Below, piece by piece: positions 35,901-64,000 of a stretch of DNA of 64,000 nt (positions are counted from its first letter, which is position 1; each line of letters begins with the position of its first letter). The translations under genes were made by a program, and so were the position numbers. Source of the stretch: Porphyra umbilicalis (taxonomy: Eukaryota > Rhodophyta > Bangiophyceae > Bangiales > Bangiaceae); the NCBI GenBank assembly GCA_002049455.2, contig KV919106.1, positions 1 through 64,000 of the forward strand, written 5' to 3'. The notes under the pieces are model-generated. The model was not told where the DNA came from. It worked only from the letters and a program-made list of their open reading frames with translations, and made no database searches.

Positions 35901-36779
35901 GGAGACTGCCTTCTGGATGCAAGACACATACATCTTCTCGTTGGTGGTGTGCTGAGCACATTTTTAGCGAAGCTTCTAAAGTCTGTCTCACTCTATTAGT
36001 CCTCTGAGAACCGCTCTTTTTTTGGAGAGACCAGAACTCCGCCGCTACGACCGCAAATGACAAGCAGTCTTCACGCAAGGGATAGAGACCCTCCAAACCT
36101 TTTTACTGCAAGAAATGGTACGCATTCTTCTGTAGGAAGCCCTTCAACGGCACACCTATGTCGAAAAGATACGGCTCAGACGCATCGTTTCCAGGCCTTC
36201 CGGCACACTGGGCGAGCCGCACGAGGTCACAGCACCGTTTCTCGCATTTGTCCCATGTTCACATATGGCACTTCCCCCAAAAATGGACACGCCGCCGATC
36301 AGGAAGCATCGTGCAGACATCGTGCTGTAAGGGGGAGCCATCGATGCATGTCCAATTGTTGAGCGGCGTTCGTGCCCCGGTAAAATCGGTTGCAAGCTCA
36401 AGACCAAAGGGCGACACTCCCGTCCTTTTCCTTATTCGCTGCCGTTGGGCTTCTCATGCAAGGAAGCAGCTCTCTATCTGGGGAGATTTTCTCTTCAACG
36501 CCGGCGTGCATCGGAATCAACTCTGATTTGGGCGTGTTTCTGCGTCCGCCACCATGCAATCGTTTGTGGGCACAAGCAGCGAGATTGCCCCGTCTCCGTT
36601 TTCTTCGCGGGAGGTGCGGCTCTGCCGCAATAGAGCACGGCATAGATCACTGCCGACGCCCCGGCTCAAATGTATCCCACCGTCGGCCGCTGCCACCGGC
36701 CGCGGCGCCATCAACTTCGGCTGTGTCACCATCGCCAACGCGGACCGCTGCCATCGACAGGGACGCCGCTGACCTCGGC
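32962..36779. other. 3.8 kb gene-poor region
   Basis: From 32962 to about 34200 the sequence is GC-rich and includes the GS promoter. From 34200 to 36700 it is more balanced, with many short ORFs and none convincing. It contains the double palindrome at 34685-34723. The stretch 36550-36760 (starting MQSFVGTSSEIAPSPF) leads into the GC-rich array and might be an upstream exon of the E(z) transcript, but this is only a possibility. Confidence 0.3.
34685..34723. repeat. two adjacent perfect palindromes resembling joined transposon ends
   Basis: A 22-bp palindrome with arms CTATTCTACCA (34685-34706) directly abuts an 18-bp palindrome GACCAGATGCATCTGGTC (34706-34723). The first contains two copies of the CTATTCTACC end motif of the MITE at 3659-4379, head to head, as expected if almost the whole element between its ends had been lost. 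Confidence 0.7.
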
Positions 36780-38840
36780 AGCCGCGTCCAGGTGTGCAGC
36801 GAACGACTGTGTCGCTGCCCAGGTGGGCTGGGCCGCTGCCGCCGCCGGTCGCACCGCCGCCGGTCGCACCGCCGCCGTCGCCCGCCGCAGCCGCCGCCCG
36901 CCGTCACCCGCCGCAGCCGCCGCCCGCCGCCGCAGTCTCTTGCCACCACCACCGCCGCGGCCGCCGCCGCCGCCGCCGGCCGCCGCGGCCGCCGCCGCCG
37001 CCGCCGGCCATCACAGCCGCCGCTGCCGACCCTTCCATCCTCCGCCGCCGCCGCCAGCGGTTGCGCGGCTTCTGCAGTCGGCCACCACCTCCGTCGCCCG
37101 CGCCCATCGGCTGCACCGCCGGCGCCGCCGCGACCGGCTGGCTACGCCGCTGCCACCGCCAGTGGTTGCGCGGCTACCAACGACGGCCACCACCTCCGTC
37201 AGCCACCCCCAACGGTTGCGCCTCGGCCGTGGCCGGCCGCCGCCGCCAGCGGTGGCCGTGTGCCACCCCCCTCCGTCTGCCTCCCCCACCGGTTGCGCCT
37301 CGGTCGTGGCCGTCTGCCACCCCCACCGGTTGCGTCTCGGCCGTGGCCGGCCGCCGCCGCCAGCGGTTGCCGTCGCCCACCCCCACCGGGTGCGCCTCGC
37401 CGTGGCCAGCCGCCGCCGCCAGCGGTCGCCTTCGCCCACCCCCTCCGTCTGCAACCCCCACCGGTTGCGTCTCGGCCGTGGCCGGCCGCCGCCGCCAGCG
37501 GTTGCGTCAGCCACCCCTGCCGTCTGCCACCCCCACCGGTTGCGTCTTGGCCGTGACCGGCCGCCGCCGCCAGCGGTTGCCGTCGCCCACCCCCACCAGG
37601 TGCGCCTCGCCGTGGCCAGCCGCCGCCGCCAGCGGTCGCCTTCGCCCACCCCCTCCGTCTGCAACCCCCACCGGTTGCGCCTCGGGCGTGGCCGGCCGCC
37701 GCCGCCAGCGGTGGCCGTTTGCCACCCCCCTCCGTCTGCCACCCCCACCGGTTGCGTCTTGGCCGTGGCCGGCCGCCGCCGCCAGCGGTTACCGTCGCCC
37801 ACCCCCACCGGGTGCGCCTCGCCGTGGCCAGCCGCCGCCGCCAGCGGTCGCCTTCGCCCACCCCCTCCGTCTGCAACCCCCACCGGTTGCGCCTCGGGCG
37901 TGGCCGGCCGCCGCCGCCAGCGGTGGCCGTTTGCCACCCCCCTCCGTCTGCCACCCCCACCGGTTTCGCCTCGGCCGTGGCCGGCCGACGCCGCCAGCGG
38001 TTGCCGTCGCCCACCCCCACCGGTTGCGCCTCGGGCGTGGCCGGCCGCAGCCGCCAGCGGTGGCCGTTTGCCACCCCCCTCCGTCTGCCACCCCCACCGG
38101 TTTCGCCTCGGGCGTGGCCGGCCGCCGCCGCCAGCGGTTGCCGTCGCCCACCCACACCGGTTGCGCCTCGGGCGTGGCCGGCCGCCGCCGCCAGCGGTGG
38201 CCGTTTGCCACCCCCCTCCGTCTGCCACCCGCACCGGTTTCGCCTCGGGCGTGGCCGGCCGCCGCCGCCAGCGGTTGCGGTCGCCCACCCCCACCGGTTG
38301 CGCCTCGGCCGTTGCCAGCCGCCGCCGCCAGCGGTCGCCTTCGCCCACCCCCTCCGTCTGCAACCCCCACCGGTTGCGCCTCGGGCGTGGCCGGCCGCCG
38401 CCGCCAGCGGTGGCCGTCTGCCACCCCCCTCCGTCTGCCACCCCCACCGGTTTCGCCTCGGCCGTGGCCGGCCGCCGCCGCCAGCGGTTACCGTCGCCCA
38501 CCCCCTCCGCTGCCGCGGCCGACCGGCGCCGTCGGCTGCGCTGTCGACGTTGCTGGCTGCCGCCGTCGTGGCCGTCCCCACCGTCGGCCGCACGGGCCGG
38601 TAGCTCCGCGGTCGTCGCGTTTGCCCGCCGCCGGCGTGGCCGTCGCCGCCGTCGGTTACCCCGGCAGGTTGCGCTGCCGTCGCCGTCTTTGGCTGCCGCC
38701 GCCGGCGTCCGGCGCCGCCGGCTGCGCCGCCGACGTTGCTGGCAGCCGCCGTCGCGTCCGTCGCCACCGGCTGGTTCACCGGTTGGTCGCGTCGCCGGCG
38801 TCGCCGGCGTCGCCGGCGTCGACGGTGGCTAAAGACGCTG
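36780..38840. repeat. GC-rich array with minisatellite of 58- and 76-bp units
   Basis: From about 37231 to 38490 a unit built around GGCCGGCCGCCGCCGCCAGC followed by CACCCCCACCGGTTGCG repeats about 18 times. Spacings between successive cores are mostly 58-59 or 75-77 bp; the longer unit carries an extra block CCCCCTCCGTCTGC. The left part (36840-37020) is simple (CCG)n-like. All frames are open because the sequence has no stops, which explains the long apparent ORFs; I do not regard them as genes. The array ends about 15 bp before the E(z) coding start. Confidence 0.9.
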
Positions 38841-38855
38841 TTTCTTCAAAACGAC

Positions 38856-41714
38856 ATGGACGACGACGCCGCTCCCCGGCCGCCCCCCTACCTCGCCGGC
38901 GGCTCATCCTCTGATGGCGGCGCGTCGAGTGTTGACGCCGTGGAAGAAGCCCTGGACACGGCGCAGGCGCGCGCCGGGGACCGACGCGCGGTAGCGCGCG
39001 TCGTCCCGCGCATCATCCGCAGGACGCTTCGGCTCGCGCGTCGCCGTCGACGGTCTGCTGCAGCAGCTGTTATGAGTGCGAACCGAGAGGCCATGCGCCG
39101 TCTACAGCGCGACCTGCATCTGCAGGCTTGCGGCGGGCCGGATCCTCCGGCCGTCGAGTGCACCGACTCCCTCGAAGGCATCACCGTCACGAATTCCTGT
39201 CGTGCTGTGTCGCATAAGCCTCCCTTTTCCAAGAAACCACGCCTGACGAATCCAGCTTGGCCGCCCAGGTCGCACGAAACGGGCGCAGGCGCCGCTCCTG
39301 CTGTCGCAGCAGTGGCGAATCGACCGCCCATCGAATCATCTGTCGATGCGACGGAGCGTACGGCCATTCGGCCGACGGTGCTACCCACCGTGCGACCACC
39401 ACCACGAATGACATCGTACGTGTCTGTCCGCCGGTCGTGGCGGCGCCTGGAAGCCCCTCCTCCGGGCTTCGTAGTCCCTTACTTAGGAGATTCTCCCCGT
39501 GCGAAGGGGGCGATGGCGCGCATCATTGACGAGAACAAGTACGCGTCAGCGGCGAGCCATGACGGTAGCTGCGCGTACGGGGACGAAGGGAGCACGGAAG
39601 GTACGGCGTACTACTCTCTTGCTGCCCGTACACGCAGAGCCATGGACCGAGAAGCTCTTGCCACTGTTGTCGCGGCGCTGCGTGCGGATGCTGTCGTTCT
39701 CCGCGTTGTGCGGCGTGTTCTCCGCGTGCGCCGGTCGGCTATCAAACTGATGCTAGATCTGGCGAACGCCCGACCGGCCGCCGCTGGTGCAGTGCACGTT
39801 GCGCGAACGGACGCCGCTGCTCGACACTCTGAACTTCGACGACTAACGGGTGGGGCCTCCCTCGCCGCGGTCTTAGCGGCGGGTACATTGGCGGAGTCCC
39901 CGCAGTCCTCGTCGGACGTGGACGGGTTGACGGGGCCGCGTGCGTTCGGCGTCGGTAGGCGCACGTCGGAACCCGTTGTTGTCCGTGGGCTCTCAGGCTC
40001 TCTGCGTGAAGGCGTCGCCGTTGCCCGCGCTGTAAGAGCGGCTGTTCGTGCGGCGGGCGGCGACGCCGTCCCCTCCGTCTCCTCACTCTTCGGCAATCTA
40101 CTGGGCTGCCGCCCTTTGCCGCGCCGCGGCGTGGCTGCTAATTCGTTGGTCGGCGTGGCCGCACCTCCGCGGCCGCCCGACTCGTCGCTCCGTACCCAGG
40201 AGACGCTTGTGCGCTTTTTCTGTCGTTTCTGCTGTGTGTACTGCTGTCGCATTCACGGGGCTCCTGTGCGTGACGGGCTCGTCACGCCGTTCCCGTCCAC
40301 GCCCGTAGCGCGTCCTTCCGACCCGCGACGCATGGAGACGGCGTCAGATGGCGCTGGCATTGATGCCCCAGGCACGGCGTCAGACGGCGGGGCAGACGGC
40401 GGTCGCGCGCGACGCGCCCGCGCCATGCATGCGGCGATTCGCGTGGCGGCCGGACCGTGTCGTGACTGCCGGCTCGACCTCCGCAGCCTCGCGGAGGTGT
40501 TCGCGCGCGGGTGCCGCACGGACGTCTGGGCCGTCGAAGACGTTGAGCTGCTTCATGCGGCTGTTCGTATTGTCGGACGGTTCGACACGTGCCGCATGGC
40601 CCGTTTCGTGCCCTCCTGGACATGTCGCCGGGTGGCTGAGTACCTGGTGGACTGGGGTTGGCCGAGAGCCTGGCCGGTGCAGCCGACGACACCTCGACCA
40701 CCCCAACGGGACGCTCCTCTTTCTCCCCCCCCCGAGTTCTCCCTCACGAACGGCAGCGAAAACGCGATCGTCAAGAAGTCCGCGCCCTTCGTTCCGTGTG
40801 GCCATCTTGGCGCGTGCACGCGGCACAATTGTCGATGCGTGCAAAGTGACGTGTCGTGTGAGAAGCAGTGTGGGTGTGCCCGTACCCGTTGGGCGTCGCG
40901 CGTGCCTGTGGTGTTGGATGCCGGCACTTCGGCGTCCGCATTTATCCCCGCCGACGGCTGCGCACCGACGGATGGGTCGCTGTTTTGCAGCAGGCGCATA
41001 TCGTGCTCCTGCACCTCGCCGTCGCGCTGTGAGACGGATTCGTGCCCTTGTTTTGCCATGGACCGTGAGTGTGACCCTGACGCGTGCATGATGTGCGGTG
41101 CCCACCTGCATCCGGCATCAGGCGTGGACGGGCTGACTACGGGATCCGTGATGGCAGAATCTCCCATCACCCGCTCCACTGCGGCCGCCACTGGGGCCTA
41201 TTGGCGCCTGGTGCGGTCACCACGCCCAACCGACCCCGGTGTCATGTCCGGGCTTGGCGTCGCTGCGTCTTCGCGCAGTCCGACGTCGGCAGGTACTAGG
41301 CGCTGTCGCAACGTTCAAGTTCAAGTTGGTGCCCGGGTGCGCCTCGTCCTGGGCGCATCTCGTGCCCACGGGCTTGGCGTCTTTGTCGCCGAACCAGCTG
41401 CAGCCGGAGATTTTTTTGGTGAATATGTGGGAGAGCTTGTCTCTACCGCGGAGGGGCACCGTCGCGGTCGAGCGTACGACGCGCGGGGGGTAAGCTACCT
41501 CGCCACTCTGTCACCAACAACCATCGTCGACGCCACCCGAGTTGGAAGCAGGACGAAGTTCATCAACCACAGCTCCGACTCGCCCAACCTGCACATGAAG
41601 CTGCTGAGCATCGGCGGTACAATTCGCGCCGCTCTCTTTGCTGCGAGGGATCTGAGCCCCGGAGAGGAGGTCTTTTTTGACTATGGCTATGCTCTTGACT
41701 CGTGGGTGAAGTGA
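38856..41714 (+). CDS. EZH: Enhancer of zeste, PRC2 histone H3K27 methyltransferase
   Basis: 952 residues from the ATG at 38856 (ccATGG-like context, frame open further upstream only into Arg-rich repeat). Domains: a divergent N-terminal half; an MCSS-like motif FFCRFCCVYCCRIHG at about 453-467; a SANT2-like segment at about 561-600 (ELLHAAVRIVGRFDTCRMAR, WTCRRVAEYL); a CXC domain at about 648-755 with two Cys clusters (CTRHNCRC, CEKQCGC; CSCTSPSRCETDSCPC, RECDPDACMMCG); and a SET domain at about 825-950 (HGLGVFVAEP, GEYVGELVS, VDATRVGSRTKFINHSS, GEEVFFDYGYA). The catalytic-core NHS and the FFDY tyrosine are present. The usual Cys of the NHSxxPNC motif is Leu (PNL), and the residue before NHS is Ile, not Ala. 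As the catalytic subunit of PRC2 it would trimethylate H3K27. A Su(z)12 homologue lies 7 kb downstream on the same strand. Confidence 0.94.
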   Translation: MDDDAAPRPPPYLAGGSSSDGGASSVDAVEEALDTAQARAGDRRAVARVVPRIIRRTLRLARRRRRSAAAAVMSANREAMRRLQRDLHLQACGGPDPPAVECTDSLEGITVTNSCRAVSHKPPFSKKPRLTNPAWPPRSHETGAGAAPAVAAVANRPPIESSVDATERTAIRPTVLPTVRPPPRMTSYVSVRRSWRRLEAPPPGFVVPYLGDSPRAKGAMARIIDENKYASAASHDGSCAYGDEGSTEGTAYYSLAARTRRAMDREALATVVAALRADAVVLRVVRRVLRVRRSAIKLMLDLANARPAAAGAVHVARTDAAARHSELRRLTGGASLAAVLAAGTLAESPQSSSDVDGLTGPRAFGVGRRTSEPVVVRGLSGSLREGVAVARAVRAAVRAAGGDAVPSVSSLFGNLLGCRPLPRRGVAANSLVGVAAPPRPPDSSLRTQETLVRFFCRFCCVYCCRIHGAPVRDGLVTPFPSTPVARPSDPRRMETASDGAGIDAPGTASDGGADGGRARRARAMHAAIRVAAGPCRDCRLDLRSLAEVFARGCRTDVWAVEDVELLHAAVRIVGRFDTCRMARFVPSWTCRRVAEYLVDWGWPRAWPVQPTTPRPPQRDAPLSPPPEFSLTNGSENAIVKKSAPFVPCGHLGACTRHNCRCVQSDVSCEKQCGCARTRWASRVPVVLDAGTSASAFIPADGCAPTDGSLFCSRRISCSCTSPSRCETDSCPCFAMDRECDPDACMMCGAHLHPASGVDGLTTGSVMAESPITRSTAAATGAYWRLVRSPRPTDPGVMSGLGVAASSRSPTSAGTRRCRNVQVQVGARVRLVLGASRAHGLGVFVAEPAAAGDFFGEYVGELVSTAEGHRRGRAYDARGVSYLATLSPTTIVDATRVGSRTKFINHSSDSPNLHMKLLSIGGTIRAALFAARDLSPGEEVFFDYGYALDSWVK

Positions 41715-42349
41715 CAGCCAGAAGTGGGAGAGGGGCAACTCTCGCCGGAGTGCCTGTGCGGGTGCAGGTCAAATGAGGGTCACGGTTTGGCCGATTGTTT
41801 GCCCCGTCCTGTTCTTGAAGAACCTCCATCCCTTGTTTCTTGTTCAAGAGGTGTCCTTTTATTCATGCACGCACGTTCTCCCGGAGCACGTGGTGTGCTC
41901 CAGCTCCCTGCCTCTAGACCGGCCCTTTGTGCTCTCGCTTGCACCCCCTCCACCCGCCTTGGATCACATGCGATGGCCTGCCGGCGGCGGCCACGCCGCA
42001 CATCACTTGCGACAGCGCATCGAGCAGCACCTCTGACACCGCCACGCCTCTCCGGGGTCAGGGGGGTGGAATTCGGCTTCCAACGCACGACACCCCCCTG
42101 GCGGAGTGGACGGCAGCGCCCGGACGGAGGGGGTGGCCGCTGGTGCCGGGCGCATGGCGGGGAGGTTTGAGGGACAGTGGCACCGCTGACGACGGTGCAC
42201 TGAGGACAGGAGTAGGGGCACCACTCGGCGTGGGGGGAGGGCGCCGGTGGTCGGTGGATGGGGAGACGGGTGTCGGCAGGTCGCCCAGTGGCGGCTACCG
42301 GTGGCGGGCGGCGGGCGACCGACGTCGGTGGGGGTGGCGGTAACCCGCG

Positions 42350-42560
42350 GGGGTGACGCGGTGGCAACCCGCGGGGCGGGCGTGTCGGCGGCCCGCGGGG
42401 CGGGCTTGGCGGCAGCCTGCGAGGCGGGCGTGGCGACAGCCCGCGGGGCGGGGGGGGTCGGCGGCCCGCGGGGCGGGCGTGGCGGCAGCCCGCGGGCGGG
42501 CGTGGCGGCAGCCTGCGAGGCGGGCGTGGCGACAGCCCGCGGGGCGGGCGTGGCGCGACG
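42350..42560. repeat. 24-27-bp minisatellite, about nine copies
   Basis: Imperfect head-to-tail copies of a unit resembling GCCCGCGGGGCGGGCGTGGC plus a variable GGCA/GACA tail. It begins about 640 bp after the E(z) stop codon. Confidence 0.85.
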
Positions 42561-42939
42561 ATGCCGCACCAGGGGGGGCGCCCTGGGGCAGAGGGGACAA
42601 TTGGAGCCAGGCGGGGCTCTGGGTCGTGTTGGGAGGGGGAGGGGGACGGGGAGGAGCCACCACAGGGGGCATCTCTCCCCACCCCACCCCTCCGACTGTA
42701 GGCCTGCTCGGGGACGGGGCGAGTGGGGACTGCTTAGCTGCGCGTGGGAGAGGCTTGAGAGGACCGCGTGGCCCCGATATAGTGATGGGGGGAACCGGCG
42801 GGAGAGACATGAGGGAGAAAACAGGCACCCTTTGTTCTCACCGCTGTCGCGACCAAGCGGGGAGAGTGACGGGTCGGGGGTACGGCTAACCCCCTTCCTG
42901 GGTGTACTTGACACCCCAAGGTGGCGGCGGCGGCACCCA

Positions 42940-44830
42940 CGGCGGCGACGTCCTTTGTTGTGGCGTCCGCGACAGCGTCACAGGCGGCGGTGGCGGCTAC
43001 TGTAGCGGTCGCAACGCCGACCGCCGGGCCTGTGGCACCGCGTCACAACGTACGCACCTCGACAGCTGTGGCGACGCACGCCGCCGCGTCGGCGGCGACT
43101 TTGGCGGACCCGGTGGCACTGCAGACGATAGCGGCGGCGAGCGCGGACGCGGCTGCGACGGCGGCCGCCTGGCCGTCCGCGGCGCTCCCCGTCGCGCGCG
43201 CGGCGGCGGCGCACGCGGCGGCGGCGCACGCGGCGGCGGCGCACAGGGAGGCGGCGCACGCGGCGGTGCCGGCGGTGGTGCCGGTTCCCGTGGCGATTTG
43301 TATGCAGGGGCGGCGGCGACGGCCGTGGCCGTTGCCGCGTCGGCCGCCTGGTCGGCAGCGGAGCGCCACGGTACGGGCCTCCCAGTGACGGCGGTGGCGC
43401 TTGCGGCGGCGCCGTGGGCGGGGGCGACGTGCCCCGCGGCAACGGCGGCGGCGACGACCGCCGTGCCGGTTGGGACGACGGCGACCGGCATGCCGCTGGC
43501 GCGCCACGCTCTGGGCCTCCCTCCGGGGACGGCACCTGCACCGCGAGTGCCGGGGGCGTCGGCTGCAGTCGCGGTAGCGCAGACGGCGGCGGCGGTTGCG
43601 ACGGCCGGCGCCGGGCCGCCAACCAGGCCCCACGATGCGCGCCCCTGCTGGTCGCGACCGCGCACGCGGCGGCCGTCGTGGGTATCCCGTCGCCCCGATT
43701 CGCGCGCCGGCGTGGAACGCCCCGACGGGCGCGTTGGCAGCCCCGCGCCCCGCGCTCTCGCCCTGCCCCCCACACCCCGGCACCGGTCCCGCTCGGCCGT
43801 GCCCATTCCGCGGCAACGAGGATGGCGCCGCTCTCGCTCGGGCAGCCTCGGGCGGCCAAGGCCTCCGCGGCGCCGGTGGCGGCTGCGGCGGCAGCGGCGG
43901 CGGCGGCGGCGCCGGTGACTCCCGCGACGGCGCATCTGCCGCGGCCGACGGCGGCGGGCCCCTCAACAGCCGCCGCCGCCGCCGTGCGAGGCATCACTGC
44001 GACTCGTGCCGCCGCCGCCACCGACGGTCCCGTCCACGCCCGCGTCTGCCGATGTGTTTGTCCACGTTGCGGCTCTTGTTGACGTCCGGGTGTACGCCTC
44101 CCCCCCCCCCTCCCCCCCCGCGCAACCCCCCGCGCACCCCCCCCCGTTCGTTGTCCCACCTGCGGTGGCCAGCAGGTGCTCCGAGCGGCCGCGGCCGTCT
44201 GCTGTTGTGGCGACGGTTGCGTCGGCCGAGGCGGCGGCGGCCGTGGCTGCGGCGGCGCAGACGGCGGCGGCGCAAACGGCGGCGACATCGTGGTCTGTCC
44301 GACAGCCACGGCGGAGCCCGGGCTTCCGGCGTCGCGTCGCGTTCCGCTCCCGCCGGGGGCGGTGCTGGCGCAAGCGGCGGCCACAAAGGCGGCGAGGGCC
44401 ACCGCGGCGGCGGCGCTGGCGGCGGCCGAATGCAGCGGTGGTGGCAGCGACGGTCACGGTGGCGGCGGCGGTGGCTGTGGCGGCCACCGGTGACGGGGAG
44501 CACGCGGCCATGGCCGCCGCTGCCGCCGCCGGCGACGGGGCGCACGCGGTCATGGCCGCCGCCACGCCCCTCCAGCGGATGTGCAGCAGGCGCGACATTC
44601 CCGGACACGGCTGACGCTCCGACATGCCCACCGCCGCAGCCCGTGCCGCTCACGTCGAACGCAGCGGTGGCAGGAAATACAGGTTCAGCGCGATGCGCCG
44701 CCGCCGATGCGCCGCCGCCGATGCGCCGCCGCCGATGCGCCGCCGCCGAGACCGCCGCCGCCGAGGCCGCCTCCGCCGGCCACGGCCGCAGCATCCGCCG
44801 GTGCTCCGGACGGCACTGTGATGCTCCGCC
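42940..44830. repeat. GC-rich low-complexity array with several short tandem units
   Basis: Degenerate GCGGCGGCG-type sequence with local tandem arrays: a ~15-bp unit GCGGCGGCGCACGCG at about 43203-43262, and four copies of a 14-bp unit GATGCGCCGCCGCC at about 44695-44752. Because 14 is not a multiple of three, the same unit cycles through DAPPP, MRRRR and CAAAD readings, so the open frames here are not evidence of a gene. C runs (44100-44150) are also present. Confidence 0.75.
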
Positions 44831-44891
44831 GTGACGTGCTTGTCAAGCGTGTGGGGTCAGAGACAGCAAGGTGAGAAAAAAAGGCAAGTGT

Positions 44892-45926
44892 TTAGTGCGC
44901 ACGAACTGCGGCCAAAACCCGATCTACGCGGTCAAATTGCCCGACAATATGGCGCTGGCTCAAGAAACTGGCCGCCATCGCCTGCAGCAGGTGGGGGTCA
45001 TCCACCAGTGCTTGATTGTGGTAGACCAAATTTCGGATGATCACCTTGAAATCGTTGAAAACGCCTTCAATCGGCTGCATGTCGGGGCTGTATGGAGGAA
45101 GGCGGAGGAACGCGACACCGTTGGCCGTCATGAAAGCGTCTCCATCGGCGTCATGGATAGGGGCGTTGTCAAACATCACGACGCAGTTGTCTGGCTGTAA
45201 ATCCCATGGCGCCCCCGGCGTGTACACGCCGAGCTTGGGGAAGAGATGTTGAAGAAAAAGTCGCCAGTCCGCCCCCGTCAACGCCTTCTCCCGCACGACC
45301 AGAGACATAAAGCCGAGGATGCGGCCTTGGCTGGATACCGCCATCGTTGTGCTTGTGCGAGGGACGGACCGCGGGTCACGATCACGAAGGTGCGAGCGCT
45401 CGTGCGTCAACGACCGGCCGTAGAGACGAAACACGTCGAACCCATCCGTGTGCGTCTCATCGACGGAGACGATGCAGCGACGGGGGATGCGCTGCCGTAC
45501 GATGGCGTGCTGACGCCGGCGCTCCTCCGTCGACTCACGAAACAGCCGCAAAATATTTTTACGACTGAATCCAAGTCGGCGAAGGTGGCGGTCGACCGTG
45601 CTCTTAGAAAAACGCACCCGTGTCATGTCCCCCGCCGGGTCCTGACTCATTATCTTGAGCATCTCGGCGTGCTCGCGGAGCAACGCATGAGGATGGTTCC
45701 GCACGAGGTAGATAAGCCCGTTCATCAGCTGCCGGTCGTACTCGCAAGCGTCGTGGTGCTTGTTCCGCCGGTCCGCGTTGCGCCACACCGACCCGCTGTC
45801 CGCGTAGTACTGCTCCCAGCGCCTCAGCTGTGTGCGCGACACGCCAATGCTGCTGCGCACCTTGCTGCGCTCCACACCGTTAGACAGCATGGAGAGAGCA
45901 GAAGCGCGCAAATGCTCAGAGTACAT
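44892..45926 (-). CDS. DDE transposase, IS630/Tc1/mariner superfamily
   Basis: 344 residues from the ATG at 45926; upstream in-frame codons are Arg/Pro repeat and not likely translated. The N-terminal half is helix-turn-helix DNA binding (LSMLSNGVERSKVRSSIGVS, then RTQLRRWEQYY). The catalytic region has Asp156 in VSVDETHTDG, Asp253 in MFDNAPIHDAD and Glu287 in PPYSPDMQPIEGVFNDF, with 33 residues between the last two. The frame is intact and all three acidic residues are present, so the protein could be active or recently so. Terminal inverted repeats are not visible; the gene is embedded between GC-rich arrays and between the two PRC2 genes, on the opposite strand. Confidence 0.93.
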   Translation of the reverse strand: MYSEHLRASALSMLSNGVERSKVRSSIGVSRTQLRRWEQYYADSGSVWRNADRRNKHHDACEYDRQLMNGLIYLVRNHPHALLREHAEMLKIMSQDPAGDMTRVRFSKSTVDRHLRRLGFSRKNILRLFRESTEERRRQHAIVRQRIPRRCIVSVDETHTDGFDVFRLYGRSLTHERSHLRDRDPRSVPRTSTTMAVSSQGRILGFMSLVVREKALTGADWRLFLQHLFPKLGVYTPGAPWDLQPDNCVVMFDNAPIHDADGDAFMTANGVAFLRLPPYSPDMQPIEGVFNDFKVIIRNLVYHNQALVDDPHLLQAMAASFLSQRHIVGQFDRVDRVLAAVRAH

Positions 45927-45959
45927 CTTACTCGAGGCAGAGCGAGCAGGTGCCGACGA

Positions 45960-47690
45960 CAAACGGCGGCCACTGCGCGGCCGGCGGCGCCCGAGGAAGC
46001 GGCGGCGGGCAATGGCGTCGCCGGCGGCAGCCAGCAACGCAAAGGCGGCGACGGTGGCGAAACCGGCCGGGGTGGTCGGCGGCCGCGCCGGCGGCGCCGG
46101 CGGCAGTCCGCAACGTCGGAGACGCAGCCGGCGGCGGCGGGCGCCGGCGGCGGCGGGCAAAGCAGGCGACGGCGGCGCAATCGGCCTCGGTGGCCGGCGG
46201 CGGCGACGGCCGCGACGGCGGCAGCCGGCAAAGAAAACGCGACGACGGCGGCGCAGCCGGCGGCGCCAGAGGCCGGCGGCGGCGGGCAGTTGGCGGTGCA
46301 GCCGGCGGTGCCGGTCGGCGGCGGCGGCCGCCAAAGGCGGCGACGGCGGCGACGGCGGCGTAACCGGCCGGGGTGGCAGGAGGCGGCGACGGCCGCGACG
46401 GCCGCGACGGCGGCGCCGGTCGGCGGCGGCAGCCGGCAAAAACGTCGGCGCAGCCGGCAGCGCCGCTCGGCGGCGGCGGCCGGCAAAGGCGGCGACGGCG
46501 GCGACGGCAGCGCAACCGGCCGGAGTGGCCGGCGGCGGCGACGGCCGCGACGGCGGCGCCGGTCAGCGGCGGCGGCGGGCAGCGTCGGCGGCGCAGCCGG
46601 CGGCGCCGGACGCCGGCGGCGGCGGCCAACGACGGCGACGGCGGTGCAACCGGCCGGGCCAGCCGGCGGCGGCGGCCGAAGGCGACCACGTCGGTGGCGC
46701 AGCCGTCGGCGCTTGGCGCCGCCGGCAGCGATGACGGCAGCGACGGCGGCAGACAGGAACGTCAGCCGCGTAGCCGGCGGCGGCGGGTGCCGCGGGCGGC
46801 GGACAACGTCGTCGCCGGCGGCGGGCGACGTCGGCGGCGCAGCCGGCGGCGCCGGTCGGCGGTGGCGGCCGGCAAAGGCGGCGACGGCGGCGACGGCGGC
46901 GCAACCGGCCGGAGTGGCCGGCGGCGGCGACGGCCGCGACGGCGGCGCCGGTCGGCGGCGGCGGCGGGCAACGTCGGCGACGCAGCCGGCGTCGCCGGAC
47001 GCCGGCGGCAGCGGGCGACGTCGGCGGCGCAGCCGGCGTCGCCGGATGCCGGCGGCAGCGGGCGACGTCGGCGGCGCAGCCGGCGGCGCCGGTCGGCGGC
47101 GGCGGCCGCCAAAAGCGGCGACGGCGGCGACGGCGGCGCAACCGGCCGGGGTGGCCGGCGGCGGCGACAACCGCGACGACGGCCGCCGGCAAAAACGACG
47201 GCGCAGCCGGCGGCGCCGGGCGCCGGCGACGGTCGGCAAAGGCGGCGACGGCGGCGACGGCGGCGCAACCGGCTGGCGTGGCCGGCGGGGGCGACGGCTG
47301 CGACGGTGGCGCCGGTCAGCGGCGGCGGCGGGCAGCGTCGGCGGCGCAGCCCGCGTCGCCGGACGCCGGCGGCGGCGGGCAACGTCGGCGGCGCAGCCGG
47401 CGGCGCCGGTCGGCGGCGGCGGCCGGCAAAGGCGGCGACGGCGGCGACGGCGGTGCAGCCGGCCGGGGCAGCCGGCGGTGACGGCGGCCGAAGGCGACCA
47501 CGTCGGCGGCGCAGCCGTCGGCTCTGGGCGCCGCCGGCAGCGGCGACGGCAGCGACGGCGGCAGACAGGAAAGTCAGCCGCGTAGCCGGCGGCACTGGGC
47601 GCCGCGGGCGGCGGGCAACGTCGGCGGCGCAGCTGGCGTCGCCGGACGCCGGCGGTGGCGGGCAGCGTCGGCGGCGCAGCCGGGCAGCGT
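45960..47690. repeat. GC-rich array with ~45-bp module and ~0.8-kb higher-order duplication
   Basis: A module containing GGCGGCGACGGCGGCGACGG and ending CGCAACCGGCCGG recurs at irregular spacing near 46017, 46331, 46487, 46872, 47109, 47236 and 47427. A longer block beginning GGCGACCACGTCGG and including CAGACAGGAA occurs at about 46679 and again at about 47491, so an approximately 0.8-kb stretch has been duplicated. Open frames across it encode Arg/Gly/Ala/Pro repeats in every frame. Confidence 0.85.
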
Positions 47691-47699
47691 CAAGTGCTA

Positions 47700-48691
47700 A
47701 CGGTCCAAGAGCGGCCGACCGACTGCGAAATGCCGGCAGTCGGCACACTGCGTGCGGTACAAAACAGCCGGCAGTCCGAGAGATAACCGTGGTCGGCACG
47801 AACGAGGGGTACAGTAGGCAGACAACAAGCAGCCAGTGGCCGGAACGCAGCCACCGTTGGGCACCGAGTGGGCGGAAGCAGACGGCAGGTCTGTTAGGCG
47901 AGCTGGCGCCGGCGGCGGTGGAGCACAAAACGGGTCCTCAACGAGCAGCCCGTCGGCCAGGAACCTCCGCTGGCAGAGCAACCTCCGATCCACGAGCACC
48001 CGCTAGTATCAAAGCACCCTCCGGTCGGTCGCCGAGCACTTGCCAGTCGCAATGCACCAGCCGGTGAAGAGCACGAGTCAAATCGGAGGACACCGCAGGT
48101 CGCGTCCGATGAGCCAAAAGATGACGGCCGACCCGCAGAGACGCACCTGAGAGACGACTGGCGAGGGACAAGCGCGGCGGTCACCCCACCGAAGATCTAA
48201 GATCACTCGCAAGTCCCTCACAGTGTCCTCGGGAACGTACGTTGACTGCATTTGTCGACAGCACGACAGGACGTTGTCCACTCGTTTGTCGAGAAACTCG
48301 CCAGGCATTACGTTTGGCGAGACTTTGAAGAGGAGTTACATAGGATTTTCCCTCCACTGGGGGTCTTTTGCTTTGGCCACCGCGCGCACAGCTTTGGCTT
48401 GAGCGAGCCCTGACAACGACCGCTCGTTTCGGTGGTCTGCGCCAATGAGACGCGCGGCGGCGGCGGCGGCGGCTCGCTGGCGGAGGCCGGGATCGCGGCC
48501 GCGGAGGCCGTCGGGGCGGCGGCCGAGGAACTGTCCAGCAGGGCGGGTCCGCCTTGATTGTATGTCGGTGCGCCTTGATTGTATGTCGGGCACTGGAGAA
48601 GCATTTCCGTCCCTTCCTCTTTGCTCCGGGTCGGACTTGTCCTCTGTGTCTCTGCGAGTCTGTTGGTGCGTTAGTACCGCGCTGTGAGAGA
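47700..48691. other. region between array and Su(z)12 gene
   Basis: Moderately GC-rich sequence without a supported gene. It contains a direct duplication of CGCCTTGATTGTATGTCGG (48550-48568 and 48571-48589) shortly before the Su(z)12 start, within its probable leader. Confidence 0.4.
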
Positions 48692-50735
48692 ATGTCTCGT
48701 CGACGCGCTTCTTTCCCCATGTCAGCCTCCACTCCCGGGCCCGCCTCCCTGCCGCCTCTACCATTTGAAACCCGCTTATCCCCCGCCTTTGTCCGTCGCC
48801 ACCCGTCTCCCACTCCCCCCGGTGTTCAACCGCTTGTTTTGGCTCTGGACGTCACTGTACTCGCCGGACGTGATCGTGATGAGGATGGGCGCACGTCACG
48901 TACGGGGCGTAGCAGCCGCTCGAGGACACGGGACATGTCGTCTGCCGTGGGCGGAGGATCTGCCGCCGGTCAGCGCTGCGAGTTCTACGTGGCGCTAGTG
49001 TGCGAGACTCCCGCTCTGGTGGGGCCCCTGCAGACGCTGATTTCCGTCGTACCGACGCTTGTCAGTCAAGCAGTGTCGATTGACCTACGGCCTGGCGTTG
49101 CCGCGGTATTGCACCATGAGGAGCGCCAGTCGGCCGCTACCGCGGCGGTCGGCCTCGCTGGTAGAATGGGGCGCTCTGCGGCGCCGGACCCTTTGGCGGC
49201 CCACCCTCGTCTTCTTCTGCGGATCGCGCACCGCACCGGCGATGGCCGTCGTGCGAAACCCGCCCCCGGTGTCGAGCACGTGCTGCACAAGGACGGCAAG
49301 TGGGTCGGCTCATGCGCTCGCGGTGGAGGCACCGATGCGCTCGGCGACGCACTGGATGGGTGGCAGCTGCACTTGTCCTGGGTGGGTGGCTTGTCCCCGC
49401 TCGACGTCTTGTCTACGTACTCCGTTTTCCTCGGCCGTCCGGGGCATTTGGCTGCAGTCCCGGCGGTGGCGTCGGCAGCGGCCGAGATGGCGGTGGCCGC
49501 AGAAGCGCTCGTCGTGGCGGATCATCCCGCCTCGCAAGGTCCAATGACGGCCCCGCGCGAGCCATGTGCGGCGCCTCCTGCAGCCAAGCTCTTCTCTCTT
49601 CCCTCTTCCGGCGGTGGCGGCGTGCCCGCTGTGCCACGTGTGGATGCTGATGGGGAGGAGTTGGTTGGCGGACGGCGGACCCCTGCAGTCTTCGACCGGT
49701 CGGCACCAACTCCCTTTGACGTTGAGTACCTGAAGTACCGCCCAGGTCGAAAGGCGCAGCCCTTCCGCCGACACACACGGCAGGACGCCCGGTGTCCGCT
49801 GTGTCAACTGGACGCGCGGACTGTCAGTGGCCTGCTGGATCACCTCCGCGCCCTCCACACCGACGTCAGCGTCGAGCTCTTCCGTGCCGTATCGGCCGCG
49901 GAGCTGGAAGGGGCCGCAGCCGCAGCCAGCAGTGATGGGGGCCGCGGGTGGGATCGCTACCTGGCACATATTCGCTGGGTGTCGACCCCAATGCTATTGC
50001 CAGGCCTTTTTGAGTCGGCCGGTTGGGTCCAATCGACGGCTGGGGCTGTGCGTCCCTCCTCCCGGCTTCCACCCGCAGCGGCCGCTGTTGCCCCCGGCAC
50101 CGTTCACCCCGACGCCCACGCCCCCTTTCAGCCGCTGCGCGACGATCACGGCGTAGTGCGCTCAGCCGGGGTCGGGCAAAGCAAGGATTGCGCGTCGCAC
50201 TCTGGCGACTGCAAGCGCTGGCCGCGAGTACTTTCACACAGGTAGCCTCACCCCTCTGTCCGTCAAGCAGTCGCCGAACGCCGAGCTGTCTTCTGACTCC
50301 GAGGACGGCGTCGACGAGGATTGGCTGCACTCGAGGGACGCGGCGCGCCTGGAGGCCCTCGAGTTGCCGTAGCATGATGTGTTGTTTATGGCTCTTTGGT
50401 CAGGGTACGTGGACGCGGCCCCCCCGTGGGGAGACAGAGGGGCGGCTTTCTTGCTCGGCGGCTTTTTCGTGGCTCGACGCAGGACCATCCTGGAAACAGG
50501 GTTGCTGGCTCAAGCCGTAGCGCATGTTGAGGTCATGTACACTCACGGGCTGTTGGATGTTGATTCAGCAGCACAAGCCATCGGCGTGCTGACGGACCGG
50601 TCGTGCTCGGGTGTGCCTAGTGGCAGTTCGGTGGGAACCGACAACGGACTAGACCCAGCGGAGGCTGTTGTTGCTGCCGCTGCCGGCGTGGCGGCGTCGG
50701 ACGCGCGCGCGGCAGCTGCCGAACGAGTCGGCTGA
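48692..50735 (+). pseudogene. SUZ12: Su(z)12/EMF2-type PRC2 subunit with VEFS box, interrupted
   Basis: The first part reads from the ATG at 48692 to 50245 and includes the family C2H2 finger CPLCQLDARTVSGLLDHLRALH (in two parts: CPLCQLDARTV, SGLLDHLRALH; about residues 367-388) preceded by VEYLKYRPGRKAQPFRRHT. In a different frame from about 50160 comes the family's pre-VEFS sequence REYFHTGSLTP, then an acidic LSSDSEDGVDEDWL. A TAG at 50370-50372 follows, and the same frame continues with the VEFS box DVLFMALWSGYV, then a HVEVMYTHGLLDVDSAA end, to TGA at 50733. So one frame change (between about 50100 and 50180) and one in-frame stop separate the finger from the VEFS box. Su(z)12 is required for PRC2 activity, and the VEFS box contacts the E(z) SET region. 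Splicing could restore the frame, but no convincing donor/acceptor removes the TAG without deleting conserved residues. Confidence 0.78.
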
Positions 50736-51010
50736 TCACCGCGCGCGGCAAAGGCCACGGCATCCAAACGTACGTCGTGGGTGTCAACGATGGCGCGTAC
50801 TCCCCCGCGACCCACGACCTCGTGTCGAACGCCTCGTGCTCGACCATGTGCATGGCGTCGCTGCTCAAGGTGCTGCACGACGATTTTGGCATCTCCCGGG
50901 GACCTATGACGATGACGCACTCCCTCACTGGCGACCAGCGCCTGAATGACGCTGGCCACTATGACTCCCTGCGCGTCCCGGACCTCGCCGAGTTCACCGC
51001 CGTGAAGTGA
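50732..51010 (+). pseudogene. glyceraldehyde-3-phosphate dehydrogenase fragment
   Basis: Reading from 50732: [20 protein letters not shown], then [18 protein letters not shown] and [19 protein letters not shown], to a TGA at 51008. This is the central GAPDH segment around the catalytic Cys (family SNASCTTNCLAPFAKVL and TMTTTHSYTGDQR). About 85 residues are covered; the NAD-binding N-terminus and the remaining catalytic domain are missing, and the last ~15 residues diverge. The catalytic Cys is kept, but the family TTNC has become STMC. It overlaps the last codons of the Su(z)12 VEFS frame by four bases. Most likely a truncated retrocopy or gene fragment left by rearrangement. Confidence 0.85.
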
Positions 51011-54000
51011 GTAAAAGCGTTGCGCGTTGCCTATCTCTCTGTGATGCTGCATGCTTTTCTTATTACCTGCTTTCCCGCTGTTCCGCGTTGCCATCTTTGA
51101 CCTCAGCCGCCTCGTTGCTGCGCGCCGGGCGCCGCGTCCGGGCGTCGCCGCCCGGCCACCCGTGGTCGGCACGGTCGCCGCTATCGCGCGTCCTCCACCC
51201 GCAGGCACCGCCAGTCACAGTGCGTGTGGGCTCACCGCCGCCCCGCTGCATACCGCCACGGCCGACGGTGCGCGGCTGCCCGACAGCGCGTCTTCGGCGC
51301 GGGCTACGGCGGCGCTTCGTACCGCCGCGGCCGCCATCGCCTCAACGCAGACGTGCGACGCCTGTGGACGCGCCGGCCGACCGCGACGTGAAGCAGCCGC
51401 TGGCAGCACTGCGGAGGGAAGAGGGTTGGGAAGGATGCAACTGCAACGCGCACAACCGCACGCCGCTGCCGCCGACGGGCGGCGCCATGCACGACACCTG
51501 CCCGCAGAGGCCGGCGGGCTGCCGTTGGCTTGGGAATCGCCCCCTTCCCCACGACGCCGCTCCACGCCACCCCCCTCACCCTATGCGTGACGGCTAATCG
51601 GTGGCGGCACTATTTTGCAGCCGTCGACGTCCCGGTCACGGGCGACCGCCTGCGCGACCGCGCGGTCGCGAGCGTGGCGCGCAACGGTGGTCACACACTG
51701 TCGGCCACTGTGGTGGAAATTGGGACCACGGGCGGACGCACGTCCGCGGCAGCCGTGAAGAAGACGACGCCGTCACTCCGCGGCGGCGGTTGGCTTTCCG
51801 CCGCTGCTGACAGAGGCGGCGGCAGGCGACGCACGACCGCGTGCAGTCGGCGGCAGGCGGCGGCGGGTGCAGCGGCGGCGGGTGGCCCGGCGGTGGGCGG
51901 TCACGCGTCGCCGCCGCATGTTGCCGTGACGGCAGTCTTGCCACCGCTGCGCACCCGGCGGCGCAACGGCGGCACGCGGCGACGGCACGACCAGGGGCGC
52001 CGGCAGCAGCAGCGGTGGCGCCTCTGTCGGCGGTGGTCGTACCTGGGTCGTGGTCGACGTGGCAGTGGTTGGTGGTGGCGGTAGCCATGTTGTGGAGGGG
52101 GCGAGCAGCGGTGGTTGGGGCCCTTCCCACGGCGGGCGCGAATCCCGAGCTGGCTGCAGCCGGCGGGCGACGGCCGGTGCCCTGGCGTGGGCGGCGGCAG
52201 CAGCCCCCCGCAAGTCCTCTGACGCCGCCGCCGCCTGGGTGGCGTCGTCATGGGCAAAGGCCGGCCCGTCGACGTGTCGGGCGCTGTGCACGCCTTCCGT
52301 CATCCCCTGCGCTCCCGCGAGCCGCCGCCGTCGACTGCACGACCAATACAGATAGCGCGCCACCACCTGCTTTTTGCCGCTGTGGTGGTGGCCGTAGCGA
52401 CGGCGCGGACGGCCTCCCGCGTCAGTTGGGGGATGGTGCAGAAAACTGCCTGGACCCGTGTCGCACGAATGCAGGTTGGACATACGGCGTCGGGCGTGGC
52501 ATGCACTTCAGAACGCAATGTCACACGTGAACTCCCCAAGGCACCATGTCAGCCACGCCTGTCTCGCATGCGGGCGGAACACCATGATGGCTCCAAAACG
52601 TTTCCGACTCTGCTGTCGAATGTACAACCCCTACCAGCATCGTTGAAAGCTGAAATCGTGCCTGCACAGCAGGCCCCGCTAGAGCCCAGGTCGAGCCCGC
52701 GAGACAACCTTGTCACTTTCAGAGCTGGAATCGTCAAAAACGCGGGCCACGTTTGCAATCGATTCGCGTCATGGAGACGAAAATGCATCTTGCTCGCCAG
52801 GTCTGTGTCGCTTTCCACGATCGATGTACACGGGACGGCTGTGGGACCTGGGAGGGAATGATCCTACAGCGGAAAAACAGTACGACACAGGCTGAACGTG
52901 CACATGCGAACCGACCTAAGACGGCACGATGTGCGTTTCAGAATGGGCAACACCCGCCAGCCCTTTTGCGCGAGGCATGTCCAGCGAAAACCCTTCCAGA
53001 CACGAGATCCACTTTATGCCAACTACAACCAATAGGATGACGCCATTCTGGCGATTTGAGGCGTCTTTCAGCGTCGGATTATATTTTCACACATTTCTTC
53101 GTGCCTCCGCACGAAAGACGTGGTCATCATGACAGTGTTGTGTATCAAGGTGAGCACCCGCCGCCGCCGTGGGCTCGACCACGGTGGCGCCGACCCGCAG
53201 TGTGAGTGTCGGGTCAAAGCAAGTCTGGTCTCTTCGTCCTACTCCCCCGGCCACCCGGGCTCACAGCTATGTACCCTCCAGGCGCTGCTCGCCCTATCGC
53301 CGGTCTCCCCCGTGCGTGCACCCTCGGTTCATGCCCCCCAGTGCGTGCCCCCCGCACGCCCTGGCGCGCCACTCAGTGGCCCGCACGCCGGGGCGGTTCC
53401 CATCCCGTGGGCCTCCCGCCCGCTCCCTCACTGGGGCGCCTCCGCGGCGCTCCCCCGTCACTCGCGCCCGTCTGGGCCGCTCGCGCCCGTCCGGGCCGGC
53501 CGCGCCCCCCTCAGCGCCCACGTGGCGCTGCGCCGGGCGCGCCGCCTCATCAACCACCACCCTGGCACCCGCCGGCGCCACGTCACCTTGGCGCCGGTGC
53601 GGCGGCGGCACGTCTGCTTACAGCGGTGCGCCCGCCGACCGCCACGCAACAGATAAAGCTGTCGCGCTGAGAGGGGTTTTTGTGTCCGTCGCATTTAGGA
53701 CAACAGGGAGTGACTGCTCGAGGTGAAAGTCGGCGTCCAGTGGGAACGAGGCCTAAGCGTAGAGCGTGTGGGTACCAGGGTATCTATTCGATGTTCGTGA
53801 CGCATAAAAGAAGACCACGGATGACTGACCACAGTAAAGCTCTCGCCGATACACACTTCGTCACCACATGCCAGACAGTGCCGGCCGTGGTCTCAAGGCA
53901 TTGTGGACACACATGTGGCTATTCGCACCTGCCTGGTAAGACTGCGGCGTGTCGCCATCGACCGCTGCTCCCACTCTGTCTGGAGGAGGAGGAGCCGATC

Positions 54001-55660
54001 CGCCGTGCTGGGGTTGACTAAGGCTCCAAAGGCGGCGCTTTCCTTTCAAGCCACAGCCAGTGACGTGGACGGCGCTGCCAGGTGCTCCACCATTCGTGGC
54101 GCCTCCTCCATTCGTAGGACCAAAGGGCATCAAATTGCTGGCGCCAATCAGTCCTGAGGCCGACCCCCTTCGGCCTCAATGAACTCCACATTCTTCGTGC
54201 CAGTGGTCATGACCAGACACGACCACCCGAAATGGTGCGCAATCGTCCATGTCGATCGAACAGAGGTGCGACCCGAGGGGTTTAGAAACATTTGTGCACA
54301 TGTAGCCTGCTTTCTCCGAGAGTGGCCCATGTTGACGACAATAATGTGGCGATCTCGGTCGATTCAGATCTGTGTCACGTCGGTACCGTGCTCGTCGTGG
54401 TGCGCACCATGCTCGGGTCAGAACACTGACGCGTTGTCCTGCCTCATCGTTTCTTGAGCTGTGTCGTTCGTCTCCTCCACGGCGAGGGATATCCGGCCCG
54501 ACCACCCTAGTTTTCCACCAGGTACGTTTCAGCATGTTTCACCATCGTGCATTCCATGGACAACAGCGGTTGTGACCAACATGACGCCGAAACAGCGGTT
54601 GTGACCAACATGATGCAGAGCTGGTCGCACTGCGTCGACAGCCCGTTCTCCCGCACATGCTCGAGCTGTCGTTCAAGGCCAAATGGCAGTCTTCTAACCT
54701 TTGCTCATGAGGCGGTTGGACCATATCGTTGTGCTGTGGTCATTTGATTCTGAAGTCATGGCTTGCGGCGCTTGCAACAAATTCGGCCCGCGACAAGCGC
54801 ATCCTACCGCGTCAGATGCGTCGCGCTGCCCACATTTGGAGTTCCGTTGTTGTCGCCGTTTGCAAGTCGATCATCCTCGGTTTCGGCCGGTCGTCGCCGA
54901 TAGGTACGTATGGGGACGGTTCTCGCGGCGGTGTTCGCGTCACTTCCTTTTCCCAGGACGTGTGCCGTGTGGGCCGTCGACTCGGCCACTGTTTGTTTTT
55001 CTCCCGCATAACGGCCACCGACCTCTGAGCTATGTCGAACACGCGGCGGTTGAAAGCAGCAGGCTGTGCTCTGCGCCCGCTTCCTGCACGCGACTTTGCG
55101 TGCCCCGCCCTCGTTGATGTTAAAGTTCTTTGTGGCATGGATGCCTCGGTTTGATGCCGTCGCATTGCTCTGTCTCTCGATCTTGTGCCCGAAGACGAGG
55201 CGCCGTGTATTTCGTGTTCTTTGAGTTCGTGCACGCTGTTCCATGGCGTGAGCTCGTTCTTCGTCAGCATTCGTCGCCCCGCACCGAAGTGTTTCAGTTT
55301 GTGCGAGCCCGTGGCGTACTCAGGCACCATCAGGCAAGCTTCTCGCGGTGTCGAGCGGCATTGTTTCTCTTATTTTTCGACAACTGGAGGAATCGCAGGT
55401 CACACCCTGGGGGGGTCGTTCTGGTGAGGAGCTCTATCGATGACCTCCAATACTTCACGGGGGTGGCCCACAGGAACAGGGCGGCGGTCCGTGTACGGAG
55501 GGTCCACGGACGGGGTGGGGCAGGGCGGGCAGTGGGCATTGGGAGGATAACAAGGTAAAAAGTGAGACAGCGGACGCGGGACGGTGGTGGAACCAGTTCG
55601 AGACCCGCCCAACAGTCGCTGCCCCCCCACACCTCTGACAGGAACGAGAAGGACCGAAGA
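51011..55660. other. 4.6 kb region without a supported gene
   Basis: 51040-52200 is GC-rich. After CTATTTTGCAG near 51618 a protein-like reading begins (VDVPVTGDRLRDRAVASVAR, then HTLSATVVEIGTTGG), possibly a single exon of unknown function. 52200-55500 is more balanced in composition with only short ORFs on both strands; 53200-53650 is Pro/Arg-coding GC-rich. A 22-bp direct repeat (ACAGCGGTTGTGACCAACAT plus GA) lies at 54563-54584 and 54592-54613. Confidence 0.3.
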
Positions 55661-55663
55661 ACA

Positions 55664-56418
55664 TGGCTGCTTTCGCGGCCGCTGCAATGGGCGGGCCGCC
55701 GCGGCAACGGCGGCGTCCACCGCAGCGCTGAACACGGCCAAGGACGAGGCGGTCAAGTCGGGCTGCCAGCTCGCCGTGGCACCGCGGTTCGAGCAGCCAA
55801 GTCGCCGCGGCAACGCAAGTGAGCGAGCGGTACTGTGACCAACACCGGCACGTGCCCGTCTTCGCCCAAGAGGGGTGGTCCCTGTGATGGAGGCACAGCC
55901 GGGCGAGGGCAGCAGGCGGGAGGCGTGTTAGACCACCGCTTAGCGGCCGGCGGTCGTGGACGCGTCCGAAAAGAGCCCAGCAACTCTTTGCGCGAGCAAG
56001 CTCACGCTGTCGTCGTGAGAACCAGAGGCTGACTACTATCTGAGCACGCTCATGCGGCGCCTGAACGGAACTCGGTTCCCGCTGGCGTCAGACCGCCACC
56101 CAGCAGGCGAAAGGACCATTGTGGCTCGCCTGTGACTACTGAAGTTGCATAAACTGAAAACGCTCCATGTGTATGGCGACCGCATACAGGCCGCCCGGAC
56201 AAGCAGGGCGCTTGAGTTTTAGTGCGGGCGACACCATCATAGCTTTTGAACAGATACCGGCCGGCCGCGTGCCCCCCAACTACCATGGGCATGATCACCT
56301 GCCTGCCCACTGTGGACACCATGGGTATTTCTCCTGCGATGACCGGACAGGGAAGAAAATGAGGCAGGGAAGCGTGATGAAGCTGCTCGATTGGCAAGAG
56401 ATGCATGCCTCAGGTTAG
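55664..56418 (+). CDS. possible multi-exon gene with an SH3-like segment, very uncertain
   Basis: One exon-like reading ends around 55819 (STAALNTAKDEAVKSGCQLA onward) at a good donor, CAA/GTGAGC. About 360 bp later, after CATACAG, a reading resembles the first half of an SH3 domain (AGRLSFSAGDTIIAFEQ) followed by NYHGHD and GYFSCDD. Exon order and frames cannot be fixed and the Trp-Trp pair expected in SH3 is missing, so this is a hint rather than a call. Confidence 0.17.
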
Positions 56419-56559
56419 ACACAATCTGCGAATGACGAGTGCCAGTCCGTGGGTCCCCAGTCAACACACCACTTCGCAAGAAACAAGCTCAGGAGCCCTC
56501 GCACTCGCAGCAGATACATTCACCAGACTCACCTGACAGAAACGAGCGCTCATGATGAT

Positions 56560-57210: not shown

Positions 57211-57310
57211 GGCGGTTGGAACGTCACCGAGATGAGGATGGCCGTCAGTGGGGTAGTGACGACGTCATCAGCGCCGTCCCCACCAGATCGGCGGTGGAAA
57301 GTGGATCTCC

Positions 57311-58873: not shown

Positions 58874-58885
58874 GCGCGCATCCCC

Positions 58886-59580: not shown

Positions 59581-59716
59581 GACCGTCGCTGCTCCCCCAT
59601 TTCTCCGCCTCGGCGGCCGCGCGGGAGGGCTGCCATGGCACCCGGCGGGCGGCCGACGCCCGCGGCCGACACGCCCGCCCCCCCCCCCCCCCCCTCGCCT
59701 TCCCCGCCCCCCCCGA

Positions 59717-63980: not shown

Positions 63981-64000
63981 CGTTGTCGTCGTCGATGCTC

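Follow-up and report, generated by a model that had tools for sequence, protein, structure and literature searches.

Why do genes for two PRC2 subunits, E(z) and Su(z)12, lie close together on one strand in the red alga Porphyra umbilicalis? The earlier note on this DNA had named local duplication and capture into one mobile unit among the possible answers. We followed the pair through the window, which is the whole 64,000-nucleotide stretch analysed here (C346:1-64000), and through the 83.8 Mb assembly of 665 contigs. The pair is housed in a DNA transposon of 34,811 bp (34.8 kb; C346:36264-71074). It is probably one copy of a family of giant IS630/Tc1/mariner-type transposons that gained E(z), and often Su(z)12, and kept them as regular genes; the PRC2 of the element would act in trans together with host subunits. 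We read the pair as part of a giant transposon because of its inverted ends, TA junctions and transposase gene, the dispersed copies, and a codon evolution typical of working proteins. The features of the window are listed below.

36264..64000, + strand: part of the transposon inside the window; the last 7 kb of the element and its right end lie beyond the window
36264..36296, + strand: left terminal inverted repeat, beginning TATGGCACTTCCCCCAAAAATGG; the partner repeat, in inverted orientation, lies beyond the window at C346:71074
38856..41714, + strand: E(z) gene, 952 aa, a single open frame with SANT2, CXC and SET (open reading frame, Pfam and profile evidence)
44892..45926, - strand: transposase of the DDE_3 family, 344 aa, an open frame between E(z) and Su(z)12 (Pfam 2.2e-9)
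48692..50735, + strand: Su(z)12 gene, broken in the window copy, with the VEFS box at 50208-50570
50621..51007, + strand: GAPDH C-terminal-domain fragment, just after the VEFS box (Pfam 1.4e-8)
57260-58126 and 58506-60728, + strand: two further open frames of no Pfam family, common to C79, C174 and C266 and, more distantly, C184

The earlier description of an intact E(z) with SANT2, CXC and SET regions holds. The 952-aa frame is open throughout, and Pfam recognises both its SET domain (3.8e-16) and its E(z)-type CXC domain (preSET_CXC, 7.1e-7) over the cut-off. When a profile of eight element E(z) copies was compared with the PDB, EZH2 ranked first (6.8e-58) and the best non-E(z) SET family reached 2.7e-22; the alignment with EZH2 spans the cysteine motif LFCRRC, SANT2, both CXC stretches and SET. 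The SET core is kept in the aligned copies (NH of the NHS motif in 8/8; alignment A4), as is the CXC motif ReCDPDAC. Judged from these residues, the conservation of the SET core speaks for a probably active enzyme more than for a decoy. Structure predictions, with a mean pLDDT of 38.7 for the C-terminal part of E(z) and 28.5 for the Su(z)12 of C184, were too poor for use.

The Su(z)12 gene does lie downstream on the same strand, as had been claimed, and its VEFS box is clear (Pfam 8.3e-10, over the cut-off), but the gene is not intact in this copy and its finger is less distinct. Relative to the C79 copy, a loss of 128 nt at about 50169 throws the reading frame off, and there is a TAG at 50370-50372. 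The Zn_SUZ12 finger scored 2.4e-5 in the window and 2.3e-4 in a second match, both below the model cut-off, and the C2H2 finger aligned with that of SUZ12 in the profile comparison with 7.3 bits. The corresponding frames are open on C184, C219, C273 and C79 (751-804 aa), with VEFS over the cut-off also in those of C184 and C273. A profile of three open copies and the first part of the window gene, compared with the PDB with matches taken up to E = 1, found SUZ12 in all 8 of its 8 matches (best 3.2e-5). The VEFS boxes are 19-24% identical to that of SUZ12.

A genome is expected to hold a handful of E(z) genes and of VEFS genes. The genome-wide search for other E(z) and Su(z)12 loci, which the earlier note had proposed, returned 80 matches to the E(z)-type CXC among 81 candidates (one below the cut-off) and 26 to VEFS among 26 candidates, alongside 85 SET domains among 100 scored candidates. 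We read 19 E(z) frames of the element type, some of them partial, and scored the best 48 of 2792 candidate protein relatives; the E(z) of C266 carries two stops. Many of the E(z) copies lack a VEFS in their vicinity, and an E(z) domain lies no more than 22.1 kb from 24 of the 26 VEFS boxes, the exceptions being those of C478 and C6. The two genes lie on the same strand 6-12 kb apart at nine loci, including the window, and tail to tail at distances of 0.7-1.1 kb (six loci), about 2 kb (four) or 13-15 kb (four); on C47 the distance is 22 kb.

The order E(z), transposase, Su(z)12 is identical on C79, C174 and C266, while C184, C219 and C273 again have Su(z)12 downstream of E(z) on the same strand. 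Because the same order recurs on other contigs, the pair on one strand is real, as first described, and is neither a chance arrangement nor a mis-assembly of one contig. The wide dispersal of the copies over many contigs also speaks against local duplication.

The first account of the locus, correct as to the gene pair, had missed the transposase between the two genes and the terminal repeat at 36264. The transposase (coding frame 44895-45926) has the D, D and E motifs with 33 residues from the second D to the E, and by its DDE_3 family and this signature it is of the IS630/Tc1/mariner type. Relatives 94-99% identical to it sit between the two Polycomb genes on C79, C174 and C266 (one stop each in C174 and C266), and that of C184, 97% identical, sits near the other end of its element. 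We scored the best 117 of 374 candidate relatives and divided them at 50% identity, a value set after inspecting the list. An E(z)-type CXC domain lies within 30 kb of 60 of the 88 transposases that are at least 50% identical and of 1 of the 29 below that value; the share of the genome within 30 kb of a SET match is at most 5.6%. Thus E(z) is tied to one transposase clade and not to the nearest relatives outside it, and the association extends to identities of about 51-57%. Of the 88 transposases, 28 have no E(z) in the 30 kb to either side, and 18 of the 80 CXC domains have no listed transposase of at least 50% identity over the same distance; contig ends account for some of these cases. The 29 more distant relatives, at 42-49% identity, make up a clade near the E(z)-bearing one, and 28 of them have no E(z) within 30 kb.

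The element on C346 is bounded by terminal repeats with 2 differences between them over 33 bases; TA stands at each junction, without any longer repeat. Similarity between C346 and the loci on C79 and C266 begins at 36264, where the end sequence starts, and the C174 element likewise begins at the position matching 36264. Since no empty site was seen, we infer mobility and TA target duplication from the ends. Together with the transposase and the copies on many contigs, they support capture into one mobile unit among the answers first proposed.

Ordinary genes, namely THOC3-like WD40, eIF4G, PfkB and glutamine synthetase, lie to the left of the C346 element. The 290 bp immediately left of it (window 35976-36263) have a 97% copy 1.4 kb to the left of the C174 element; this match may reflect either a shared flank repeat or insertion into the same type of repeat. 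Inside the element, long G+C-rich repetitive arrays precede E(z) (36833-38818) and adjoin the transposase (46085-47680). They are similar to each other in inverted orientation, and several of their frames are open; gene finders are likely misled by them.

The 23-bp end TATGGCACTTCCCCCAAAAATGG occurs at 128 sites genome-wide (56 forward, 72 reverse; at most 2 mismatches), and the reversed pattern, searched as a control, occurs at 0 sites. A variant end sequence yielded further sites. From 110 different listed end sites (100 of the 128, and 14 from the variant search), pairing of adjacent, convergent ends less than 60 kb apart gave 34 pairs, 20 of at least 15 kb and 14 shorter (3.2-9.8 kb). The large elements span about 17-48 kb between their paired ends and together make up 0.79% of the genome. 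Of these 20, 16 contain an E(z) CXC domain (16 of the 80 in the genome), 18 a transposase at least 50% identical to that of the window (18 of the 88 listed) and 11 a VEFS box (11 of the 26), mostly with a single CXC and a single transposase each. Four lack a CXC match: C1:117555-165293 has a SET match and a transposase, those on C135 and C193 a transposase alone, and that on C13 neither CXC, SET, VEFS nor transposase. The large pair on C73 contains E(z) and no listed transposase. None of the 14 shorter pairs contains a CXC, VEFS or transposase match. Three short elements of 3.5-4.8 kb (C33:333333-336836, C12:122898-126524 and C56:136677-141499) have both end types in common with the giants and, by eye, solely repetitive frames; from this content they look non-autonomous.

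The elements carry other cargo. The GAPDH fragment, also found in C79 and C174 (98% identical) and in C266 (80%), is likely captured cargo. Beyond the window, the element encodes a P-type metal ATPase frame (C346:64013-66052, - strand; Pfam 7e-39). In such ATPases a D is expected before KTGT; here the residue is G, and the protein is therefore probably not a working pump. Near the right end, also beyond the window, lies a Cys/His-rich frame of 652 aa and no Pfam family (C346:68466-70421, - strand), with pieces about 88-98% identical in C184, C273 and C219; its recurrence makes it a possible second element gene. The frames scanned with Pfam (10, 10 and 93, part of them outside elements) included no capsid, DNA polymerase or packaging family and no tyrosine recombinase, and none of the scanned element frames was an ESC/EED or p55.

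Are the captured genes maintained? Between subfamilies, dN/dS was 0.16-0.30 for E(z), 0.36-0.39 for Su(z)12 and 0.10-0.25 for the transposase, in a sample of chosen loci (36 + 6 E(z), 6 Su(z)12 and 15 transposase pairs, with one E(z) pair having no defined dS). E(z) pairs at dS 0.02-0.14 gave ratios of 0.23-0.65, and those at larger dS 0.16-0.30; pairs with dS below 0.01 gave ratios of 1.2-3.5, which are uninformative (both Polycomb genes in the pair C184-C219; E(z) and the transposase in the pair C313-C5). By this codon measure, all three genes are under purifying selection between subfamilies. Between C346 and C184, dS is 0.14 for the transposase and 0.44 for E(z), and between C79 and C184 it is 0.40 for Su(z)12; these differences suggest that modules have been swapped between elements.

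The alga's own PRC2 genes do not appear to form a cluster, which the pair in the window might have been taken to be, as its likely E(z) is on C76 and its likely Su(z)12 on a different contig, C478, with that on C6 perhaps another. C76 has a SET domain (4e-7) and a CXC domain (4.6e-7) in the 1,200 bases read, and C478 a VEFS box (1.2e-11). None of the best 117 of 374 transposases lies on C76, C478 or C6. The VEFS box on C6 (429693-430049), on a contig with no E(z), is 29% identical to that of C478. VEFS boxes of the elements are 44-54% identical to the C6 box and 24-28% to that of C478. From these identities, C6 is possibly a second host Su(z)12 and may be closer to the donor than C478. We dropped C143 as a host E(z) since it reads as a decayed copy of the element type, and C61 since its match to the E(z) of the window is at 51%; C352 and C506 encode SET proteins of other kinds. 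Phycobilisome linker domains, which mark the organism as a red alga, gave 12 matches in the assembly, eight on seven nuclear-like contigs and four on C665, which is taken as the plastid.

For E(z) (22 rows), the best tree needs two changes, and 48% of 200 bootstrap trees have one, so that a single capture and several captures are both compatible with these sequences. The VEFS tree (8 rows) has no well-supported branch. Because the host sequences C76 and C478, as well as EZH2 and SUZ12, form long branches, the trees do not fix the origin of the captured genes.

What might a transposon do with two PRC2 genes? The E(z) and Su(z)12 of the element would bind one another through their SANT2/CXC and VEFS parts, and the pair would recruit ESC/EED and p55 from the host to form a transposon-owned PRC2 that methylates H3K27. 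Going one step further, this complex might act in trans on the host Polycomb system, and intact copies would supply those that have lost Su(z)12, such as that on C346. Transposons become expressed when E(z) is lost in the red alga Cyanidioschyzon (Hisanaga 2023, as cited in PMC13353863), and an ancestral role of PRC2 in the repression of transposable elements has been proposed (PMC8788455). According to PMC4777549, mariner elements of animals co-opt the PRC2 of their host by means of a silencer and thereby restrain themselves. In view of the Cyanidioschyzon loss and the mariner co-option, PRC2 is a natural lever for the element, one that can be moved in opposite directions. The element PRC2 could set the level of the element's own silencing, or it could compete with host PRC2 for partners and so ease transposon silencing; either course is compatible with the data. 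With some reserve, we lean towards a selfish PRC2, in which element E(z) and Su(z)12, together with host WD40 subunits, would steer the H3K27 methylation of the alga for the benefit of the transposon, in a lineage where PRC2 otherwise silences transposons.

Two other uses of the captured genes have to be weighed. They might be decoys, which would attach to PRC2 subunits of the host or to nucleosomes and so block the host complex while methylating nothing themselves. Such a block would help a transposon if PRC2 represses transposons as it does in Cyanidioschyzon (PMC13353863, citing Hisanaga 2023), but a decoy need not keep the NH of the SET core in 8/8 copies or the ReCDPDAC of the CXC domain, and we consider this unlikely. 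E(z) and Su(z)12 might instead be passengers, host genes multiplied by a large transposon to which they are of no use. Other host-like genes, namely a GAPDH fragment and one for a P-type ATPase, are indeed present in the elements, the C346 copy of Su(z)12 is broken, and many E(z)-bearing elements have no VEFS box; however, dN/dS between subfamilies is low for both E(z) (0.16-0.30) and Su(z)12 (0.36-0.39), and E(z) stays with one transposase clade down to identities of about 51-57%, which makes mere carriage quite improbable.

The mobile unit itself could be questioned on two grounds. If host PRC2 genes had spread by segmental duplication, with transposons inserted alongside, the varying position of the transposase (between the genes in C346, near the end in C184) would be accounted for, and the 290 bp common to C346 and C174 are the sole known flank shared outside the ends. 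However, E(z) copies are bounded by matching inverted ends, mostly with one CXC and one transposase per pair, and in C79 and C266 the similarity sets in with the terminal sequence at 36264, so that we give this explanation very little weight. An endogenous giant virus, or a hybrid of virus and transposon, is brought to mind by size and gene cargo alone. The Pfam-scanned frames hold no capsid, polymerase or packaging family and the transposase comes with matching ends, while 0 of 43 pattern matches on viral contigs were confirmed as relatives of the window E(z); a viral origin is the least credible of these readings.

The giant transposon thus resembles IS630/Tc1/mariner elements in its 344-aa DDE_3 transposase with D-D-E motifs, its inverted ends and its TA junctions, and differs from them in cargo and size. 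Elements of this superfamily are usually a few kb long, whereas those of the alga measure 17-48 kb and carry E(z), often Su(z)12, and other genes. Capture of epigenetic enzymes by DNA transposons has precedents. HarbingerS and MuDR transposons of Phytophthora carry SET genes (Kojima and Jurka 2014, as cited in PMC12730594) and are, like the alga's element, DNA transposons with a SET histone methyltransferase gene; to judge by their names in that source, they belong to other transposase superfamilies, and the alga's gene is an E(z) with CXC, accompanied by Su(z)12. Fungal DNA transposons carry TET/JBP genes (PMC12730594), which in that account encode a DNA dioxygenase, unlike the histone methyltransferase and partner subunit found here. 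The animal mariner elements belong to a related superfamily linked to PRC2, but, as described, they use host PRC2 through DNA sites, whereas the alga's element carries PRC2 genes. Fungal Starships are likewise giant, cargo-carrying eukaryotic DNA elements, though published descriptions give them a tyrosine recombinase in place of a DDE transposase. Compared with EZH2 and SUZ12 of the PRC2 core, the element proteins are recognisable by profile, but their genes sit on a mobile element in tens of copies, and the VEFS box has diverged to the low identity given above. Among the matches listed in the open-licence literature, which misses many papers, none described a transposon-borne E(z) or Su(z)12. 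Transposons with SET or TET/JBP genes were thus known, and what appears to be new, as read from the sequences, is a Tc1/mariner-type giant with an E(z)-Su(z)12 pair.

The enzyme that the PRC2 proposal sets against transposons is here borne by a transposon family. The capture and use of a multi-subunit chromatin complex by mobile elements thereby becomes testable, and the element copies, some with Su(z)12 and others lacking it, provide a natural series. In such algae, counts of PRC2 genes may be counts of transposons.
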